A DNA stretch of 64,000 nt from assembly GCF_030866805.1 (NCBI RefSeq), contig NZ_CP133019.1:620001-684000 (forward strand), in the 5' to 3' direction. Origin of the DNA: Microbacterium terrisoli (GTDB lineage Bacteria; Actinomycetota; Actinomycetes; Actinomycetales; Microbacteriaceae). The notes beneath the pieces are model-generated. The model had not been told where the DNA came from. It searched no databases and worked only from the letters and a program-made list of their open reading frames with translations. The translations under genes were made by a program, and so were the position numbers. Below, piece after piece: positions 29,202 to 46,328 of the stretch. Numbering within the stretch: position 1 is the first letter of the stretch; the number at the start of each line of letters is the position of its first letter.

Positions 29202-31274
29202 TCAGTGGACGAGTTGAGCGCAGTTCTCGGCGATCGACACGGGGGTCGTGGTCGCTGTGGGGGAGTAGCGCACGCTCAACGGCGCTGTCGCTCGCTCAGG
29301 CAGTGCCGTCGTGTACGACACCGTCTCAGTCTGTCCCTTCGGGACCGCGACTGTCACACTGGTCACATTACGCCCGTCCTCCTGGCCCGATCGTGCCAGG
29401 CTCGGGATGAGCGACGACGCAGCCGCCTTCGCCGGGGCCGCCTTCGCGCCCGGCGGGGCGAAGTACAGAACGTCCAGCAGCATGGTCGTGCGAGCCCGGC
29501 CGAAGCGCGGGGACCGCAGTCCCAGCACGTAATCCACGAAGTCGCTGCTCGGCATCCTGTTCTTCATCGAGATCTTCGTGGTCACCGTGCGCTTGGAGAC
29601 GTTGCAGGTCAGGTCGATCTTGGTGCTCAGCCAGTACTCCTGCTTGCCGACGGCGTAGTCGTTCAAGAAGATGCCGACCTGCGTGCCGGCGGTGTTGTTC
29701 TGCGGCAGCTGGCCGTCCACGTTCCACTGGACCGCGAGGGCCTGCTCGGTCTTCTTCGGGAACCACAGATAGACCCGCTGCTCTTTCGCCGACTGCACGA
29801 AGGCGTCGATCATGGCGGTGGGGTCCCAGTCGCCGGCGGCGATCTTCGTGAACACGGCCGACGCGACTTTCGCGAAGTAAGCGTCGGAGTCCGGCCCGCG
29901 CGGGAAGCGTGCGTACGCGTCGCTGAGCACGGTCTTCACGACGTTGGCTGCGGTGAGCCTGTCGCCGTCGACGCTGACGGGACCGGTGACCTTGAGCAGA
30001 TGCGAGAGCACGACCGGGTCGACCGAGATGACGCCGTCCAGCGGCCGATCCGTGGTGGCTTTCCACAGATCGCGGAACATCTTGGCGGTGGTGGGGAAGT
30101 TCGGCGTGCGCGAGTAGTTCTGCGAGTACCAGGGGGTGTCTTGCGGGTAGATCTTCAGCATGTTCTTCGGCAGCTTCGTGTACGTGTGTCGCACGGTGCC
30201 CGCCTGATAGAACGTCTCGGAGCTGGCCTGGTCGACCAGCGTGACCTTGCCGTGGTCGACCTTGACCTCGGCAGACGATGCGGGGTTGCCGCCGGTCGCC
30301 CGGATCTCGGCGTTGTTCTGGAACACCAGCAGATAATGACGCGCGCCGTCGGAGCCGAGCATCGGCAGCACTACCGGCAGCACACGCTGCGCGTTCTCGA
30401 CCGTCGGCGTGTTCTCGTCGATGACGCTGACCATGCCGCCGATCGCGTCGCGGATCGGTGACAGGAGTCCGTCCAGCTCGATGCCCGACACCTTGGCCGA
30501 CGCCCGGTGGAATGCGTCGGCGATGCCCGGCAGCGCCTTGTTGGCCGCCTCGAACGGCTTGAGGTTGATGCCGCCGCCCTTGAGCTTGAGGTTCTTGGCC
30601 TGCAGGCCGGTGATGACCTTGATCCCCTGTGGCAGTGCGTCGTCGACCAGGATGTGCGCTGCCACCGTCGTGTTCTGCACGGCTGCGACGTTCTTGCCGA
30701 CCCAGGGCACTTTGGCGGCGATGTCCCACAGCGGGCCCTGCACAGTCTTGTATGCGGCGTCGGTGTGCGTCTTGATCTGGGCGGCGGCCTGGTCCAGACG
30801 GGCGACGTCGCCCTTCTCGAGCAGGGCCGGCACCGCCGCGATCTGCGTCTTGGCTGCCATCAGATCGTCGCGCGCACTGGTTGCCTGCTTCACGAACGTG
30901 ACACCCAGCACCGCGCCGACACCGATGATCACGATGAGCACGCCCAGGATGCTGAGGCTCCAGATCAGTGCGCGACGTTTGCGGTTCTTGCGGCGACGGT
31001 GATGGCGGTGGTGACCCTGGCCGTGCCCCGACCCCGAGCCGCCGCTCGAGGAACGTACGCCGCCGGCTGTCGACCCGCCTGAGGCCGGCACATCACCGGA
31101 ATCGGCGGCGGCGAACAGCTGAGCGAGTGCCTCACGGTCGACCATCGCATCGGTCTGGTCGGCCACGCGCCGCGGCATTGCCGCACGGGTGTCATCGGCG
31201 GGGACGCCGGCCCCGTCGGCGGGCGCGTCCGCATCGGGCTGGGCAGCGTCCCCAGAAGGCTGCTCGGGTTGCAC
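29202..31274 (-). CDS. DUF4012 membrane protein
   Basis: A 690-residue single-pass protein. Residues 1-100 are disordered and cytoplasmic (Ala/Asp-rich, then Gly/Ser/His/Arg-rich), residues 102-128 form the membrane helix, and the remainder is a large extracytoplasmic DUF4012 region (LLVFQNNAEIRATGGNPASSAEV, DGVISVDPVVLSHLLKVTGPV, VGIFLNDYAVGKQEYWL). DUF4012 proteins are found in exopolysaccharide loci of actinobacteria, but no activity is established. It is clearly paralogous to the C-terminal 580 residues of the gene at 34107. It starts with GTG and has no phosphatase domain. Confidence 0.88.
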   Translation of the reverse strand: MQPEQPSGDAAQPDADAPADGAGVPADDTRAAMPRRVADQTDAMVDREALAQLFAAADSGDVPASGGSTAGGVRSSSGGSGSGHGQGHHRHHRRRKNRKRRALIWSLSILGVLIVIIGVGAVLGVTFVKQATSARDDLMAAKTQIAAVPALLEKGDVARLDQAAAQIKTHTDAAYKTVQGPLWDIAAKVPWVGKNVAAVQNTTVAAHILVDDALPQGIKVITGLQAKNLKLKGGGINLKPFEAANKALPGIADAFHRASAKVSGIELDGLLSPIRDAIGGMVSVIDENTPTVENAQRVLPVVLPMLGSDGARHYLLVFQNNAEIRATGGNPASSAEVKVDHGKVTLVDQASSETFYQAGTVRHTYTKLPKNMLKIYPQDTPWYSQNYSRTPNFPTTAKMFRDLWKATTDRPLDGVISVDPVVLSHLLKVTGPVSVDGDRLTAANVVKTVLSDAYARFPRGPDSDAYFAKVASAVFTKIAAGDWDPTAMIDAFVQSAKEQRVYLWFPKKTEQALAVQWNVDGQLPQNNTAGTQVGIFLNDYAVGKQEYWLSTKIDLTCNVSKRTVTTKISMKNRMPSSDFVDYVLGLRSPRFGRARTTMLLDVLYFAPPGAKAAPAKAAASSLIPSLARSGQEDGRNVTSVTVAVPKGQTETVSYTTALPERATAPLSVRYSPTATTTPVSIAENCAQLVH

Positions 31275-31371: not shown

Positions 31372-32271
31372 TCAGCGCGGGACGCGGGTCAGGGCGTTAC
31401 CGGCCCAGACATATGTGCGGCTCGCCGTCGTGGTGATGGCCACGGGTCCGGTGGTCGCGGCATCCTTCGCACAACCGGCAGGCGCGCCCTCGCCCGCGGC
31501 GCCGGTGAATCGGGTGAGGGCGATGCCCGAGCAACCCGCGACGTCGGTCTGTGCGACGAACAGATCGCCCGAAGCGATCGCCAGGGCGACCGCATGCGGG
31601 GCGTCGAGCTTCGTCCAGTCACTGCCGATGCGCACATAAGGCGTCTCGTCGCAGATGACGGCGACGACAGCGCCAGACGCGCGCAGTCCGCGCGCATCGG
31701 CGCACGGTGCGGCGAAGTCGTCGCCGGGCGAGACCACCGTGCCGGCGTCGTCGAATGCCAGGTAGCGGGACTTTGCGAGCGAAGTCTTGTCGGGCTCCCA
31801 GAACTTGCCGCCGGTGAAGCTGCGCAAGCCGGTCGGGGTGCAGTCGGCGCCGGTCGCGGCGACCGCCGCGGCGCCGTCCTGCCCGAGGGGGTCGAGCGAG
31901 GCGACCTGGGCGATGCCGCGGTAGTGGGGCGTGATGTCTTTCCACGATGCGCCACCGTCGACCGAGCGTTCGAGGAGTGGTTCGGTGCCGCCGCATGCCC
32001 CGGCAGTCGCACGCCACAGTGAGTCGGTCGACGCGACGATGAACCGCTGGTCGGCTCGCGGCAGCGCTGACACGGCGGGTGTCGGCGTTTGCGTCGGCGT
32101 CGCGGTCGTCGTGAACGTCGCCGCAGGCACGTTGGGCTGTTCCAGTGCCGTTGTGCTGTCGTCGCGCAGCAGTGCCAACGATGACACGATCGCCACGACG
32201 ATCGCGAGCAGGATGAGTCCGATGATCGCCCAGCCCCTCCGAGACATGGGATGTCGGGTGTGAGGTGACAT
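31372..32271 (-). CDS. Membrane-anchored extracytoplasmic protein with BNR-like repeat
   Basis: A 299-residue protein of unknown function. A membrane segment near residues 14-35 anchors it, a Thr/Pro-rich linker follows (TTTATPTQTPTP), and the rest resembles a small beta-propeller, with a BNR/Asp-box-like motif SVDGGASWKDITP and several Cys residues. No catalytic sialidase residues were identified. It starts two bases after the BY-kinase stop, so it is coupled to it and probably acts in polymer export or sensing. Confidence 0.75.
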   Translation of the reverse strand: MSPHTRHPMSRRGWAIIGLILLAIVVAIVSSLALLRDDSTTALEQPNVPAATFTTTATPTQTPTPAVSALPRADQRFIVASTDSLWRATAGACGGTEPLLERSVDGGASWKDITPHYRGIAQVASLDPLGQDGAAAVAATGADCTPTGLRSFTGGKFWEPDKTSLAKSRYLAFDDAGTVVSPGDDFAAPCADARGLRASGAVVAVICDETPYVRIGSDWTKLDAPHAVALAIASGDLFVAQTDVAGCSGIALTRFTGAAGEGAPAGCAKDAATTGPVAITTTASRTYVWAGNALTRVPR

Positions 32272-32273
32272 GC

Positions 32274-33998
32274 CTAGCGGCCGGGTCCTCCCGCATCGGG
32301 CGGGGAGTACTGCGAACGGGTGGGCGGGGTGGCGGCGACGCGGTGATCGGCGCGCAGGGGCAGCGGCTTCTCGGCATCGAAGATGCCGAGAAGCTCTTCG
32401 AGCTCAGACGACGACGTCGACCGTGCAGGCGCGGCCGCCGGCGCGACGCCCTGCGCGGGAGCGGCAGGTCGCGGCGCCATTGTTCCCGGTGCCACCGGTG
32501 CCACCGTGCCTGGTGCCGCTGGCCCCGGCTGCGCCGGCTGCCATCGTGGCTGCTCCGCCGCCTTCGCGAGCGGTGTCTGCGGCGGCAGCGCCGATGTCGG
32601 ACTGTGCCGCCGATGCGCGGGCCGCACCGCCTGCGCGTGGGCAGTCTCGTCTTGCATGTAGCCGTAGCCGTAGGTGTAATAGGCATCCGGCCCGCGCGTG
32701 GGCACCTTGGTCAGCACGACGCCGGCGGTCTTCGCGTCCACCGTGTCGAGCGCGTCGATGGCGTTGGACAGCTGGTTGCGGGTGGTCGTACCGGCGGCGG
32801 CGATCACGATCGCCCCGCTGGTCGCCTTGGCCAGAATCGCGCCGTCGGTCACCGGCAGCAGCGGCGGCGCGTCGCACAGCACGACGTCGAAGTCGCGCTC
32901 GAGCGCGGCCAGCAACGTGTGCATCTGCTGCGACCCCAGCAGCTCGCTGGGGTTCGGCGGCACCTTGCCGGCGGGCATGACATAGAGGCTACGCCCACCC
33001 CACGGCAGCATCACATCGCCCACGCGCACGTGCCCGATGAGCACGTCGGTCAGACCCACGCCGCCCTCGATGCCCAGGTACTCGGCGACCTTCGGCTTGC
33101 GCAGATCGGTGTCGAGCAGCGCGACCTTCTTGCCCGCGTCGGCCAGCGCGATCGCCAGGTTGATCGCCGTGGTCGACTTGCCCTCTGACGGCATGCTCGA
33201 GGTGATGACGAAGCTCGCGCGGCCCCCCATGTCGAGAAACTGCAGGTTCGTGCGCAGCGTGCGGAACGACTCGGCCCGGGGGCTGAGTGGGTCGGCGTGC
33301 ACGATCAGCGGCCGTTCGGGCGCCTTGGGGTCGTCGGCGATCGCACCGATCAGCGGAGCGTCGGTGACCTGCGCCACGTCGCGCGGGGTGCGCACACGCG
33401 TGTCGAGCACCGAGCGCATCACGGCGAAACCGATGCCCAGGGCCAAGCCGATCAGCAGACCCAGCGCGAGGTTCAGCAGCACCTTGGGGCTCGACGGGGC
33501 ACTGGGTGCCTGGGCCTCTGCGACGGTGGTGAGCCGCACCGGGCTCTCCTTCGCACCGGACGGCGACTCGATCTTCTCGACGGTGGCCGTCAGGCTCGCC
33601 GCCAGCGCGTTCGCGATGTTCGCCGCCTGCATGGGGCTCGGGTCGGTGGCGGTGATCGTGATCAGCGTGGTGTTCAGGGGGCTCGTGGCCGACACGCGGT
33701 CGGTCAGCTTCGTGACCGTCGTGTTGAGCTTGAGCTTGTCGATCACGGGAACCATCACCGACGGTGTCGTCACGAGGTTCGTGTAGGTGTTCACGCGGGC
33801 GAGCGTGAACGAGTTGCCCTGTTGCAGATCCGCGATCGAATCACCGGTCTGCGTCGAGACGACGACCGTGCTGGATGCCTCGTACTGCGGTGTACGGGTC
33901 AGCGAATATCCCGCAGCCACACCGATGCCGAGCAGCGTGATGAGCGCGATCGCTATCCAGTGCTTGCGCAGGATATGAATGTAATCGCTGAGCTCCAT
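32274..33998 (-). CDS. Wzz-like chain-length regulator fused to BY-kinase (CpsC/CpsD type)
   Basis: A 574-residue polysaccharide co-polymerase and bacterial tyrosine kinase. It starts at ATG 33998 behind AAAGG. The Wzz domain has membrane helices at about 15-33 and 173-194. The cytoplasmic kinase has Walker A SSMPSEGKST (267-276), Walker A' LLDTDLRKP (294-302) and Walker B VVLCDAPPL (372-380). A tyrosine cluster (Tyr440, 441, 443, 445, 447) follows, and a long Pro/Ala-rich tail after it is unusual. The cluster is the expected autophosphorylation site controlling polymer length. It lies next to a phosphatase-DUF4012 fusion that could reverse this. Confidence 0.92.
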   Translation of the reverse strand: MELSDYIHILRKHWIAIALITLLGIGVAAGYSLTRTPQYEASSTVVVSTQTGDSIADLQQGNSFTLARVNTYTNLVTTPSVMVPVIDKLKLNTTVTKLTDRVSATSPLNTTLITITATDPSPMQAANIANALAASLTATVEKIESPSGAKESPVRLTTVAEAQAPSAPSSPKVLLNLALGLLIGLALGIGFAVMRSVLDTRVRTPRDVAQVTDAPLIGAIADDPKAPERPLIVHADPLSPRAESFRTLRTNLQFLDMGGRASFVITSSMPSEGKSTTAINLAIALADAGKKVALLDTDLRKPKVAEYLGIEGGVGLTDVLIGHVRVGDVMLPWGGRSLYVMPAGKVPPNPSELLGSQQMHTLLAALERDFDVVLCDAPPLLPVTDGAILAKATSGAIVIAAAGTTTRNQLSNAIDALDTVDAKTAGVVLTKVPTRGPDAYYTYGYGYMQDETAHAQAVRPAHRRHSPTSALPPQTPLAKAAEQPRWQPAQPGPAAPGTVAPVAPGTMAPRPAAPAQGVAPAAAPARSTSSSELEELLGIFDAEKPLPLRADHRVAATPPTRSQYSPPDAGGPGR

Positions 33999-34106: not shown

Positions 34107-36632
34107 TCAGAATCCGTCGCACGAGTGCGCGATGGTCACGGGCGTGTCGGTCACGGTGGGGGTGTGCCGCACCGAGATCGGCGAGACGGCGCCCTTGGCG
34201 AGCGTGCTCGTGAACGACACGGTGCGCGTCTGCCCCTTCGGCACGATCACCGTCACGCTCTTCGCGGCGTGTCCCTTCTCGATGCCAGAACGCGCAAGTG
34301 ACGGAATCTGATCTCCAGTAGTCTGAGCCTTGCTGATCGAGGCGCCGGGCGGCGCGAAGAACAGCACGTCCATGAGCATGGTCGTCCGCGGCTGGCCGTA
34401 GCGGCCATCGCGCCAGCCGAGCGTGTAATTCGAGAAGTCGGCGCTCGGAATGCGATTAGAAATGTCGATCGAGGTGGTCACGGTGCGTTTGTCGGCGTCG
34501 CACGTGACGTTGACCTTGCTGGTCAGCCAGTACTGCAGCTTGCCGACGGTGTAGTCGTTCAAGAAGATGCCGACCTGGGTGTGTTGCGCGTTGGTGGTGG
34601 TCAGCGCACCGTCGATTCCCGCTTCCGCCGCGAGCGCCTGCTCGCTCTTGGCCGGGAACCACGCGTACAGGCGCTGCTCCTGAGCGGACTCCTGCAGCTG
34701 TGTGAGCATCGCCGCGGGATCCCAGTCGCCTGAGGTGACCTTTGCGAACACGGCGGAGGCGACCTCGGCGAAGTACGCGTCTGAGTCGGTGCCTTTCGGG
34801 AACCGTTCGTACGCATCGCTGAGCACCTTCTTCACGACGTTCTTCGCCGTGAGCCTGTCACCGGCCACGGTGACAGGACCGGTCACGTGCAGCACGTGCG
34901 AGAGCACCACCGGGTCTACCGAGATCACTCCGTCGAGCTTCTGGTGCGTCGTGGCCCGCCACAATCCGTCGAAGAGCTTCGCGGTCGTAGGAAAATCGGG
35001 TGTTCGTGTGTAGTTCTGCGGATACCACGTGGTGTCTGCTTGGTATATCTGACGCATCTTCTGCGGGAGATCGACGTATTCGTGGCGCACTGTCCCGGCA
35101 TTGCTGAATGTGGCCGTGCTCGCTTGTGCACCCAATGTGATGCGTCCGTGGTCTACGCGGATCTGTGCCGATGCCGATGGGTTGCCGCCCGTGGCGCGCA
35201 TCTCGGCGTTGTTCTGGAAAATCAGCAGGTAGTTGCGTGGTCCGTCAGAGCCTGCCATCGGCAGCAGTGTCGGCAGAATGCGCTGCACGGTCTTCAGCGT
35301 CGGCGTGGCCTCGTCGATGATGTCGAGCAGGCCGCCGATGGCGTCGCGCACCGGCGGTAGCAGGCTGTCGCGGTCGATGCCGCCGACGGTGGACTGCGCC
35401 TGAGCGAACGCAGCGTTGATGCCGGGCAGGTCCTTCTGGGCCTGTTCGAAGGGCTTCAGACTGATGCCGCCGCCCTTGAGCTTGAGCTGCTTGGCCTGCA
35501 TAGTCGACATCAGTCTGACCGCCGGCGGTAATGCGCCGTCGACCAGGATGTCAGCGGCCTCAGTCGTCTTCTGCACGGCGCTGATGTTCACGCCCACGAA
35601 CGGGACGGCCGCGGCGATGTTCCACAGCGGTCCGCTCGTCGTCTTCAACGCGCGCTTGGTCAGCGTCTGCACGTCGGCGGCGACCTGCTGCAGCCCGGCC
35701 GAGTCGTCGGCTTTCATCAGGGTCGTGACCTGCCCGATCTTGGCTTTCGCCGCCATCAGATCTGCCTGTGCGCTCTGCGCTTGCTTGAGAAAGAGCACGC
35801 CCATGACCGCGGCGACGGCGACGAGCAGCACGACGCCGCCCACGGCCCCGATGATCCAGGGCACCCACCGCCGGCGACGCCGGCGGCCGGCGTCGCCGTG
35901 CGGATGAGAGTGCGAGGACGAGCGACGCCTGCGCGTGCGGTGGCTTGTCGGAACCTCGGGAGTGGCTTCGGCGGCGGGCGCCTGTACGACCGTCCCGCCG
36001 ATGAGCTCTTCTGCCTCGGCCGGGTCGCCCTCGTGTGCCGGTGTCAGAGCGATGCGCAGCACCCGCACGACCACCTCGAGCGCCGAGGTCAGCTGCTGGG
36101 TCGCGAGCTCGTACGTCTCGGCTGACCGGCGGTAGGGGTCGACGACGTCATCGTCCGACAGCTCGTGCGGCGTCGGGCTCAGCCCGCGGCGAGAGGCGAC
36201 CAGCGCAGAGACTGCGCGTACGCGGGCTCCGGCATCCGTGCCCGCGGCGGCAGCCGCGTCGCGGATCTGCCCGTGGGTCAGCTCGGACGCGAGGCGGGCG
36301 AATTCGCGCAGCGTGAACGCCTCGCTCACGCGGATCGGCGCGAGGCGGGCGATCTTGCGGCGGTGGTTGCGCGACATGCCCAGGATCAGATCCGGGGTGA
36401 CCAGGTCGTCGGCGGTCAGCACGTGCGAGCGGTGCGCAGCGGCGGCATCCGCGCCGACGCCCAAACGCACGGCGATGGCCTGCATCTCGTCGGGCATCGG
36501 CATATCGGCCAGCGGGGCCGTGCCGGCACTGGACGCGTGTGCGCCCAGATCTGCCAGGGCATCGGTCAGCAGCAGTTCCGCAAGCGGGGATCGGCAGATG
36601 TTGCCGGTGCAGACGGTGAGGATCTCGAACAT
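34107..36632 (-). CDS. Low-molecular-weight protein tyrosine phosphatase fused to DUF4012 membrane protein
   Basis: One uninterrupted 841-residue frame. Residues 1-195 are a cytoplasmic LMW-PTP domain: P-loop VCTGNICRSP (Cys8, Arg14) and the acid Asp165 in DPYRRS. Residues 196-256 are a linker ending in an Arg-rich stretch; 257-283 is a membrane helix; the rest is an extracytoplasmic DUF4012 region (LLIFQNNAEMRATGGNPSASAQI, DGVISVDPVVLSHVLHVTGPV) paralogous to the protein at 29202. LMW-PTPs normally are separate proteins that dephosphorylate BY-kinases such as the one encoded 108 bases downstream. The fusion would place the phosphatase at the membrane on the same molecule as the DUF4012 module. 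Start MFEILTVC at 36632 is the natural LMW-PTP start. Confidence 0.9.
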   Translation of the reverse strand: MFEILTVCTGNICRSPLAELLLTDALADLGAHASSAGTAPLADMPMPDEMQAIAVRLGVGADAAAAHRSHVLTADDLVTPDLILGMSRNHRRKIARLAPIRVSEAFTLREFARLASELTHGQIRDAAAAAGTDAGARVRAVSALVASRRGLSPTPHELSDDDVVDPYRRSAETYELATQQLTSALEVVVRVLRIALTPAHEGDPAEAEELIGGTVVQAPAAEATPEVPTSHRTRRRRSSSHSHPHGDAGRRRRRRWVPWIIGAVGGVVLLVAVAAVMGVLFLKQAQSAQADLMAAKAKIGQVTTLMKADDSAGLQQVAADVQTLTKRALKTTSGPLWNIAAAVPFVGVNISAVQKTTEAADILVDGALPPAVRLMSTMQAKQLKLKGGGISLKPFEQAQKDLPGINAAFAQAQSTVGGIDRDSLLPPVRDAIGGLLDIIDEATPTLKTVQRILPTLLPMAGSDGPRNYLLIFQNNAEMRATGGNPSASAQIRVDHGRITLGAQASTATFSNAGTVRHEYVDLPQKMRQIYQADTTWYPQNYTRTPDFPTTAKLFDGLWRATTHQKLDGVISVDPVVLSHVLHVTGPVTVAGDRLTAKNVVKKVLSDAYERFPKGTDSDAYFAEVASAVFAKVTSGDWDPAAMLTQLQESAQEQRLYAWFPAKSEQALAAEAGIDGALTTTNAQHTQVGIFLNDYTVGKLQYWLTSKVNVTCDADKRTVTTSIDISNRIPSADFSNYTLGWRDGRYGQPRTTMLMDVLFFAPPGASISKAQTTGDQIPSLARSGIEKGHAAKSVTVIVPKGQTRTVSFTSTLAKGAVSPISVRHTPTVTDTPVTIAHSCDGF

Positions 36633-42811: not shown

Positions 42812-44107
42812 TTGCTGCCCTTTTCAATTAGAGATGTTCTGCTCGCAATCGGTGCGCGGATTGCCACGGCGCCACTGACAGCCGTGGCAGCTATCGCTAC
42901 TACTTACATAGCGATCGCGTACGCCGGTGCCGTGACCTTTGGGTTTATATCCTTGCTCGGCACACTGTTCATGCTCATCCCGTTCTCGGATCTCGGTCTC
43001 GGTGCGGCGGTCGTGAATAGTGTTTCACGTCGCGCGGAAGATGCAGAGCGCGAGGAGATAGCTCTCGACGTCACTAGACGCGCTCTTCGTGCCCTTATTG
43101 TTGTCGGTATTGTGGTTGTGGTCGTTGCTGGCATCCTATCCGCATTCTCTCTATGGCCTTCCTTGCTCGGCATCCCACAGGAATTCGCTGGCGACGCAAA
43201 TCTTGCCGCGTTCGGGGTATTCTGCTGTGTTGGAGCTGGAATCCCGTTTGGGCTTGGCCAGCGGTTACTTGTTGCCGACAATAGGACGCACCTTTCTACG
43301 CTGATCTCGGCAATTACCTCAATTGTGTCAGTCGGGTTCACTTCCGCTATTGCGCTCGTCGCGGGACCGGCACTGCTGATGGCCATCGCGACCCCCGCGG
43401 GCATCCTCGTGGCAGGCATCATCGCGACGTTCGTTGCCCGCAAGCGGCTTGGCTGGACGTGGCGTCAACTTTTTGCAGGGCCCCCAACTCGTCAAACCCT
43501 GACTGAGAGTCTTTGGAAGCCAGCCGTTCCAATGCTGATCGTCATGATTGGCGCGCCGCTTGCCCTTCAATCGCATCGTTTGATCCTCGCGCATGTTGGT
43601 TCTTCGGCTGAACTCTCGGAATACGCCGTTGCAGCACAGTTTTACGTCCCAGCTCTGTCGATCGTGACGACTGGTGCTTTGGCGTTATGGCCGCAATTCG
43701 CACGCGGGCGGGGCCAACAAGGTCGCAATTGGGGAGTAAGTCTTCTATTAATGGCTCTGTTCGGTATTCTGGGCGGGGTGGCATTAGCTCTCCTTCTCGC
43801 ACCTGTATCGCTGCTCGTCAGTGGAGGTCGCGTGATCGTTGGATTTCCGCTCGCGATCAGCTTCGCGATACTTCTGCTTGTGATGAGCCTGCATCAGCCA
43901 TCAGCGATGCTCTTGACGTCAACGAGGGGTCTCTGGTTTCAAGCTGTATGCATGGTGGCCTTGGCGGCCACATCCATTCCTCTCGGGGTACTGACTACTC
44001 CTCTTCTTGGAGCGGTGGGTCCGGTTGCATCGACGGCGGCGGCCGTGGCGATCACCACACTCATCCCGTGCATCATGTATGCCCGATGTGTAGTCCTTCG
44101 GGGCTGA
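42812..44107 (+). CDS. wzx: Polysaccharide flippase (Wzx-like)
   Basis: A 431-residue integral membrane protein with 12 or so predicted helices, of the MOP exporter type: early segment AVTFGFISLLGTLFMLIPFSDLGLGAAVVNSVSRR is characteristic of Wzx proteins. It would flip the undecaprenyl-linked repeat unit across the membrane. It starts with TTG at 42812, 12 bases after the glycosyltransferase; the Shine-Dalgarno is weak. Base composition is lower in GC than the ribosomal genes. A decayed transposase lies directly downstream. Confidence 0.86.
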   Translation: MLPFSIRDVLLAIGARIATAPLTAVAAIATTYIAIAYAGAVTFGFISLLGTLFMLIPFSDLGLGAAVVNSVSRRAEDAEREEIALDVTRRALRALIVVGIVVVVVAGILSAFSLWPSLLGIPQEFAGDANLAAFGVFCCVGAGIPFGLGQRLLVADNRTHLSTLISAITSIVSVGFTSAIALVAGPALLMAIATPAGILVAGIIATFVARKRLGWTWRQLFAGPPTRQTLTESLWKPAVPMLIVMIGAPLALQSHRLILAHVGSSAELSEYAVAAQFYVPALSIVTTGALALWPQFARGRGQQGRNWGVSLLLMALFGILGGVALALLLAPVSLLVSGGRVIVGFPLAISFAILLLVMSLHQPSAMLLTSTRGLWFQAVCMVALAATSIPLGVLTTPLLGAVGPVASTAAAVAITTLIPCIMYARCVVLRG

Positions 44108-44927: not shown

Positions 44928-46328
44928 GTGCTACATCGTGTATCCAGCGAAGTTCCAGTGGAAAGTTACTACGATAGACGGGTGCAGACAGTGGCGGAGC
45001 GACCAAGGTTGGCGCTCGCGATCCCGGCCGAGCGGTGGTTGCTCGGCATTGTCGTGATGCTGCTCCCCTTGCGAGAACTTTCGCCTGTGCTCCGTAGCGT
45101 TCTCTCGCCTGGAGTGATTCTCTCGGCACCCCTGCTTGTGGTAGCAGTTTCGCGCCTCGGTCGGTACAAGTACGGGTGGATGCTTGGCATCACCTACTTG
45201 GCTGTATTGGTCACTGCACCGCTCCTTTGGATCACGCCGGGTGGGCGTGAAATCCAATGGGGCTACGGTTGGCTCGCGATACTGACGCTCTTCGTCTCTT
45301 TCGTGCATCTCGTTGTACTGCTGTGGGCGCGCGATCGGATTGGGACGCGATTGACACTTGCGCTTTACGCAATCGGCATGATCTGTCAGGTGATTCTGAC
45401 GCTCGACCATACAAACGACAACGCATGGAAGTTTGGGCTTGCGGTTCCGATTACGTTGTTGGGACTCGTGATCGCGTCGCGGGGGCGGCCATTCTGGTCC
45501 GTACTCGTCTTGCTTGCGGTGGCGTACGTGTCGATCCTCTGCGGGTTCCGAAGCTTCGTGGCTTTTGCAATCGTCGCGGTCATCGGGTGGGTGTGGAATG
45601 CGCGGTCAAACTTGCGGTCCGGCTGGAAGCTCGTTGGGTTCGCCGCGGTTGGTGTCCTCGCATACTGGGCGGGCACTCAAGCCGCACTTGCAGGCTGGTT
45701 GGGTGAGCGCAACCGGATTGTCACCGAACAGCAGATCGAGGCTGCCGGTTCGGTTATCGCTGGTGGGCGTGTCGAGTCGACCGCGTCCTTTGCGCTCTTC
45801 GCGGCGAGGCCAATCGGGATAGGACCGGGAGTGTTGCCGCTCCCGAGTGATATCGCGGTTGGCGAGACTGCACTTGTCGGTCGTGGCGTGAACATCGATG
45901 GGCAGTACGTTAACGACTACCTATTTGGTGCAGGCGTGAAACTTCATTCGATCGTCGCTGATCTGTGGGTGAACTACGGTCTCATTGGCCTTGCCCTTGC
46001 GCTGCTGCTCGCCTGGATCACGATTCGCGCATTGGTGCGAGCTCTCTCTGATCGAGCAACACCCATAATCACCTTCTTTCTCATCGTGGTCGTTTTGTGG
46101 GACCTTGCCTTCTCGCCGATCGGCACGAACTTGTGGGAGACAATTCTTGCGCTGGCGATGTTGCTTCCCATGTCATTGACACGGAACGGAATCGACGAGT
46201 CTGTTCCTGCTCCGAACCACATGTCGGCTTCCTTCGATGAGAGTGCAATCAACCAGCACGCGACTGCGACGAAGGTTCAGTTTTCGGTGAACTCTCAACC
46301 ACGTGTGAAGCTGAACGCGGATTACTGA
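44928..46328 (+). CDS. wzy: O-antigen/exopolysaccharide polymerase (Wzy-like)
   Basis: A hydrophobic protein of up to 466 residues with about 11-12 membrane helices and one larger extracytoplasmic loop (GERNRIVTEQQIEAAGSVIAGGRVESTASF through IGPGVLPLPSDIAVGE and HSIVADLWVNYGLIGLALALLL), the layout of Wzy/O-antigen ligase-fold polymerases. It would polymerise flipped repeat units. Start is uncertain: GTG 44928 gives the longest form, while GTG 44982 or 44991 would start nearer the first helix (AERPRLALAIPAERW). The C-terminal 50 residues are polar. GC content is clearly lower than in the core genes. Confidence 0.82.
   Translation: MLHRVSSEVPVESYYDRRVQTVAERPRLALAIPAERWLLGIVVMLLPLRELSPVLRSVLSPGVILSAPLLVVAVSRLGRYKYGWMLGITYLAVLVTAPLLWITPGGREIQWGYGWLAILTLFVSFVHLVVLLWARDRIGTRLTLALYAIGMICQVILTLDHTNDNAWKFGLAVPITLLGLVIASRGRPFWSVLVLLAVAYVSILCGFRSFVAFAIVAVIGWVWNARSNLRSGWKLVGFAAVGVLAYWAGTQAALAGWLGERNRIVTEQQIEAAGSVIAGGRVESTASFALFAARPIGIGPGVLPLPSDIAVGETALVGRGVNIDGQYVNDYLFGAGVKLHSIVADLWVNYGLIGLALALLLAWITIRALVRALSDRATPIITFFLIVVVLWDLAFSPIGTNLWETILALAMLLPMSLTRNGIDESVPAPNHMSASFDESAINQHATATKVQFSVNSQPRVKLNADY

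Follow-up and report, generated by a model that had tools for sequence, protein, structure and literature searches.

In the pneumococcal cps operon, the conserved part carries a LytR-CpsA-Psr (LCP) gene, a phosphatase gene and two bacterial tyrosine kinase (BY-kinase) genes; the LCP protein Wzg interacts with the BY-kinase partner Wzd, and the kinase complex has been proposed to recruit the LCP protein (PMC9216600). LCP ligases retain the Gram-positive capsule (PMC12220298). In other capsule loci, low molecular weight protein tyrosine phosphatases (LMW-PTPs) of the Wzb/VpsU type are encoded next to the BY-kinase as separate, soluble proteins. VpsU, for example, removes phosphate from VpsO and by its activity promotes polymer production (PMC7485978). 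A different arrangement is found in Microbacterium terrisoli, in a window of 64,000 nucleotides (contig NZ_CP133019.1, positions 620,001 to 684,000): a single 841-residue protein joins an LMW-PTP, like Wzb and VpsU in catalytic motifs, fold and adjacency to a BY-kinase gene, to a DUF4012 membrane protein. We consider it probable that this protein is the LMW tyrosine phosphatase of a capsule locus, in the Wzb/CpsB role, fused at its end to a DUF4012 protein and thereby tethered beside the BY-kinase where the polymer is handed over.

The fusion frame is confirmed as it stands in the record, running without a stop from an ATG at 36632 (MFEILTVCTGNICRSPLAE) to its terminal stop at 34107, and the same kind of start is found in standalone relatives (e.g. 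P0039). In Pfam, PF01451 matches residues 4-125 (57.9 bits, cut-off 23.2) and PF13196 (DUF4012) residues 463-608 (148.5 bits, cut-off 28), both so far above cut-off that a chance match is ruled out; the scan yields no module beyond these two. The preliminary description of this DNA had claimed a complete LMW-PTP, a membrane helix and DUF4012 in one unbroken frame, with catalytic residues Cys8, Arg14 and Asp165 and a position 108 bases from a BY-kinase, all of which we find: the residues lie in CTGNICRS and VVDPY, and the BY-kinase ATG is 108 bases downstream of the fusion stop. Among the matches listed, the pattern C[TS]GN[IV]CRS is present in 120/120 phosphatase homologues, and a stricter pattern for the acid Asp matches 108 of them, missing variants such as IVDPY of P0040; VVDP is kept in all 24 standalone rows of the phosphatase alignment (A1). 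P-loop, DP general acid, domain profile and fold are all those of an LMW-PTP, for which phosphotyrosine hydrolysis is predicted; we take Ile12 to be a pointer to tyrosine specificity.

The fusion has a single hydrophobic segment (residues 255-287) with eight Arg/Lys within the 20 residues preceding it, a charge distribution by which the N-terminus should face inward and the C-terminus outward, placing the phosphatase in the cytoplasm and DUF4012 outside the membrane. Two domains on opposite sides of one membrane might suggest a sensor, as the preliminary description had proposed, in which the ectodomain senses the state of polymer or wall and alters phosphatase activity inside. We find this improbable: 45 residues with a predicted local distance difference test (pLDDT) score below 50 (213-257) separate the phosphatase from the helix, Pfam reveals no signalling module, and tethering explains the anatomy without any signal. 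The disordered linker favors tethering over transmembrane signalling.

Could the join be an artifact, two genes falsely appearing fused through a sequencing or assembly error near the phosphatase stop? At codon 196, near the usual end of standalone phosphatases, the +1 frame contains a TGA; this speaks for such an error, and may otherwise hint weakly at the way in which the stop disappeared. However, the other two frames contain no ATG, GTG or TTG at codons 171-254, which leaves an independent DUF4012 without a start ahead of the membrane segment in these frames too, and the GC content of third codon positions is even (0.80-0.88 in all three windows over the linker), with no sign of a frame change; an error thus seems very improbable. 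The fusion frame itself has no ATG, GTG or TTG at codons 192-256, so a separate DUF4012 product would need GTG257, within the membrane segment, or GTG187, GTG189 or GTG191, within the phosphatase. The protein cluster of the fusion has two member sequences but a single contig, and thus counts as one independent genome.

LMW-PTPs were said to be normally standalone, and the 120 homologues listed are all of 196-266 aa, in a search that admits only chains of about 107-341 aa. Searching with the whole protein gave no second chain with LMW-PTP and DUF4012, nor did residues 1-195 among chains of about 463-1471 aa (7994 candidates scored), a search from which relatives can escape since it missed P0036, found by the whole-protein search. 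In the genus, 364 of 366 genomes gave a match, with at most two candidates per genome scored; among the matches listed, the own genome alone spans residues 1-841 without a stop, and G078 spans 4-830 with two TGA. One further genome (G164) was considered as a second fusion, being open over 116-838, but its frame has no phosphatase by hidden Markov model. In the family, 315 of 398 genomes gave a match and, again among those listed, the own genome alone is unbroken over both halves, G388 spanning 2-833 with one TGA. The scan of 396 genomes of the order used a profile without the phosphatase columns, which cannot reveal fusions; of 50 loci examined at that level (40 hand-chosen stretches with long open frames near listed matches, and 10 further), a phosphatase shares the DUF4012 frame only in our own (L179), and for eight of the long frames Pfam gives DUF4012 alone. 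Across 171 loci, four frames carry both domains, all of them from own-genome loci. The literature searched gave no account of LMW-PTP and DUF4012 in one chain and never named LMWPc and DUF4012 together, in line with the earlier suggestion that the arrangement is undescribed. With the fusion seen in one genome only, its general reach is smaller than had been suggested.

Two chains join an LMW-PTP to other domains: P0036 (819 aa; the source names an Acidimicrobiales metagenome-assembled genome) combines it with RpiB and serine hydroxymethyltransferase, and P0038 (607 aa) carries it C-terminal to an ATP-grasp part. They resemble the fusion in this joining, but their partners belong to soluble-enzyme families, unlike membrane-borne DUF4012. 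Separately, one genus (g35) has DUF4012 genes with consistently long open frames (L188-L194, about 920-945 and 1190-1200 aa); four of the seven were scanned and show no known domain ahead of DUF4012, and the frames are either an extension or a chance opening.

Both halves have their closest proteins in Microbacterium kribbense, where the phosphatase has 197 aa (63%) and the DUF4012 protein 577 aa (69%); the two genes are probably on the same contig (254450 bases for the longest contig in each case). The available sequence of this DUF4012 protein (P0002) begins inside the expected membrane helix, and the true protein may extend further at the N-terminus. Trees place each half as sister to the corresponding M. 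kribbense protein (support 82/81 and 91/73, neither starred), so the fusion either arose after this divergence or was later reversed in M. kribbense; next to the fused DUF4012 half comes the window's other DUF4012 protein (100/100). A second genus of the family (G388, L156) has phosphatase, DUF4012 and BY-kinase following one another in that order on one strand, with the first two frames in register and separated solely by the three nucleotides of a stop codon; this is the order and register of the fusion, in which that stop is absent. A co-oriented phosphatase followed by DUF4012 also occurs in G078, G047 and G146, all four genomes having been picked from the matches rather than sampled. In the named loci, a set retrieved through similarity to the fusion, DUF4012 lies within 1200 bp in 14 of the 79 with a phosphatase, on the opposite strand in 12 of the 14. 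Of 29 genus loci retrieved by their phosphatase, 17 have it directly ahead of the BY-kinase. DUF4012 is present in 21 and absent from 34 of the 55 loci of at least 20 kb with phosphatase and BY-kinase; its count of 0/34 in phosphatase-fetched loci is biased, as loci with both would come in via DUF4012. Given neighboring unfused genes in relatives, the fusion joins gene neighbors: it is a private join in one genome.

A private join may also be an accidental one, bringing no functional gain and leaving each half to act as when separate. This neutral fusion assumes the same identity of the halves as our preferred explanation and differs only on whether the join matters; its chances come close to even, and we consider it nearly as likely as a useful fusion. 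It is favored by the single genome, by the separate 197- and 577-aa proteins of the nearest relative found, by another standalone LMW-PTP and another BY-kinase elsewhere in the genome and by the predicted disorder of the linker; yet the intact domains and a linker lacking an in-frame DUF4012 start indicate that the cell tolerates the fused protein, perhaps as the sole form.

What raises the fusion above the ordinary is the predicted fold of its ectodomain. A fold search with the whole 841-aa model matched the phosphatase part only, and the ectodomain was for this reason folded alone. Its core is predicted to have an LCP-like fold, and the LCP identity of the fold matches was confirmed on checking, which gives substance to the earlier hint that the fusion might point to a function for DUF4012. 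Compared with the LCP phosphotransferases (PF03816), DUF4012 shares this predicted fold but adds a helical stalk and a C-terminal beta sandwich, with weak or absent sequence similarity. Over 47 sequences, Glu477 and Gly483 of a loop within the core (474-483) are invariant, and Asn474 and Arg479 are conserved in at least 90%. DUF4012 occurs in an exopolysaccharide locus of B. longum 105-A (PMC5412050), and its enrichment has been described for Gram-positive bacteria, Cyanobacteria and Chloroflexi (PMC6744442); the available parts of the DUF4012 literature searched contain no mention of LytR-CpsA-Psr or LytR. By sequence, the PDB gave no relative of DUF4012 in five rows (E 0.006-0.09), one for NccX and four for sc-apCC entries. 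We take the latter to be designed coiled coils.

We hypothesize that the cytoplasmic phosphatase would dephosphorylate the BY-kinase tail, that the ectodomain would bind or transfer lipid-linked polymer outside, and that the flexible linker of about 60 residues would keep the phosphatase near the kinase complex where polymer is made and handed over. In this scheme the protein would unite in one chain, beside a BY-kinase, the work of pneumococcal Wzg/CpsA (LCP) and Wzh/CpsB (phosphatase). The likeness to the wzg-wzh-wzd-wze locus lies in one locus that combines an LCP-fold ectodomain (predicted here) with a tyrosine phosphatase and a BY-kinase; the pneumococcal phosphatase Wzh, by contrast, is of the PHP type, Wzg crosses the membrane three times and there is no fusion (PMC9216600). 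A covalent join of phosphatase and LCP-like domain fits a coupling of kinase cycling with polymer hand-over. The LCP fold match also gives DUF4012, a family without assigned function, a testable role in binding or transfer of lipid-linked polymer, and the fusion provides a Rosetta-stone link between a DUF4012 protein and the phosphatase that resets a chain-length kinase. A broader proposal, which we regard as unlikely, is that DUF4012 is an unrecognized LCP-like family that binds, transfers or releases lipid-carried exopolysaccharide in actinobacteria and beyond, its action being physically coupled to BY-kinase dephosphorylation so that one protein performs chain termination outside and kinase reset inside.

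Several observations weigh against this scheme, beginning with the finding of the fusion in one genome only. Phosphatase activity of the fusion is predicted, and that half finds its best single fold matches in arginine phosphatases of the YwlE type, which belong to the same superfamily. A GAGGTG stands a few bases upstream of GTG191, where internal initiation is possible and would also make a free DUF4012 protein. For the ectodomain, PF03816 is not reported at E ≤10, in a scan whose filters drop most matches above about 0.1, and PF13196 is the only profile recovered. Local hhalign comparison of DUF4012 with LCP gave E 0.085, with an LCP set reduced to the 8 of 26 sequences (derived from 30 loci) that passed a motif filter, 18 including L230 being dropped, and with unrelated controls at 0.19 (BY-kinase) and 0.15 (phosphatase); global mode gave nothing useful. 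A cleaner set of seven LCP domains trimmed to their matched ranges gave E 0.0066, a probability of 5.7% and 41 aligned columns. Residues invariant across the seven LCP proteins (Asp3, Arg24-Asp25, Arg126, Arg128, Arg138 and Gln142-143, alignment numbering) mostly have, by eye, no counterparts at the matching places, in sequence order, in DUF4012. The canonical LCP site is thus probably not kept, which would make a non-catalytic role of DUF4012 possible. Three LCP genes are present in the own genome, all outside the window, but this absence is no special argument because 79 of 80 named loci likewise lack a canonical LCP gene in the available stretch, with or without DUF4012; the idea that DUF4012 stands in for it in such loci is accordingly unsupported. 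Lastly, capsule level in the pneumococcus is reported to be set by neither kinase phosphorylation nor phosphatase activity (cited in PMC9216600).

Table 1. Features of the fusion gene and its neighbors (positions within the window).
Feature	Position	Strand	Basis
LMW-PTP, linker, membrane segment and DUF4012 fusion, 841 aa	34107..36632	(-)	open reading frame and Pfam
LMW-PTP domain, residues 1-196	36045..36632	(-)	
P-loop CTGNICRS, residues 8-15 (Cys8, Arg14), CX5R(S/T) type	36588..36611	(-)	motif in sequence
General acid Asp165 in VVDPY, DP motif late in domain	36138..36140	(-)	motif in sequence
Linker, residues 197-256, Arg-rich end, predicted disordered at 213-257	35865..36044	(-)	model and start-codon scan
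Hydrophobic membrane segment, residues 255-287	35772..35870	(-)	hydrophobicity; model helix 257-299
Predicted extracytoplasmic helical stalk, residues 288-459	35256..35771	(-)	model
Predicted LCP-like alpha/beta core, residues ~459-672 (PF13196 covers 463-608)	34617..35258	(-)	predicted structure, fold matches
Conserved loop NNAEMRATGG, residues 474-483	35184..35213	(-)	alignment of 47 sequences
C-terminal beta sandwich, residues 685-841	34110..34580	(-)	
BY-kinase with Wzz part, 574 aa	32274..33998	(-)	TIGR01007 157.5 bits, PF02706, Walker motifs
Tyrosine cluster DAYYTYGYGY in BY-kinase tail	32658..32687	(-)	sequence
299-aa protein between BY-kinase and second DUF4012, N-terminal-side membrane segment by eye	31372..32271	(-)	
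Second DUF4012 protein, 690 aa, without phosphatase, 60% identical to the fused one	29202..31274	(-)	Pfam, alignment

The BY-kinase combines Walker motifs, a tyrosine cluster and a Wzz-type membrane part, and its tyrosine-rich tail is the likely substrate of the fused phosphatase. The 299-aa protein that follows has no match in Pfam or NCBIfam. Further genes for a UDP-glucose dehydrogenase, for a GDP-mannose dehydratase with a related epimerase, for glycosyltransferases and for a priming sugar transferase mark this as an exopolysaccharide locus; by eye, 42812-44107 would be the flippase and 44928-46328 the polymerase, neither of which matched Pfam. Outside this locus, a third DUF4012 protein of the same genome is encoded near C1:1042021. 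A further stretch (L258, G000:C1:585000-604500) has a standalone LMW-PTP frame (585859-586611) and a BY-kinase (602556-604490), and appears to form another polysaccharide locus in this genome.
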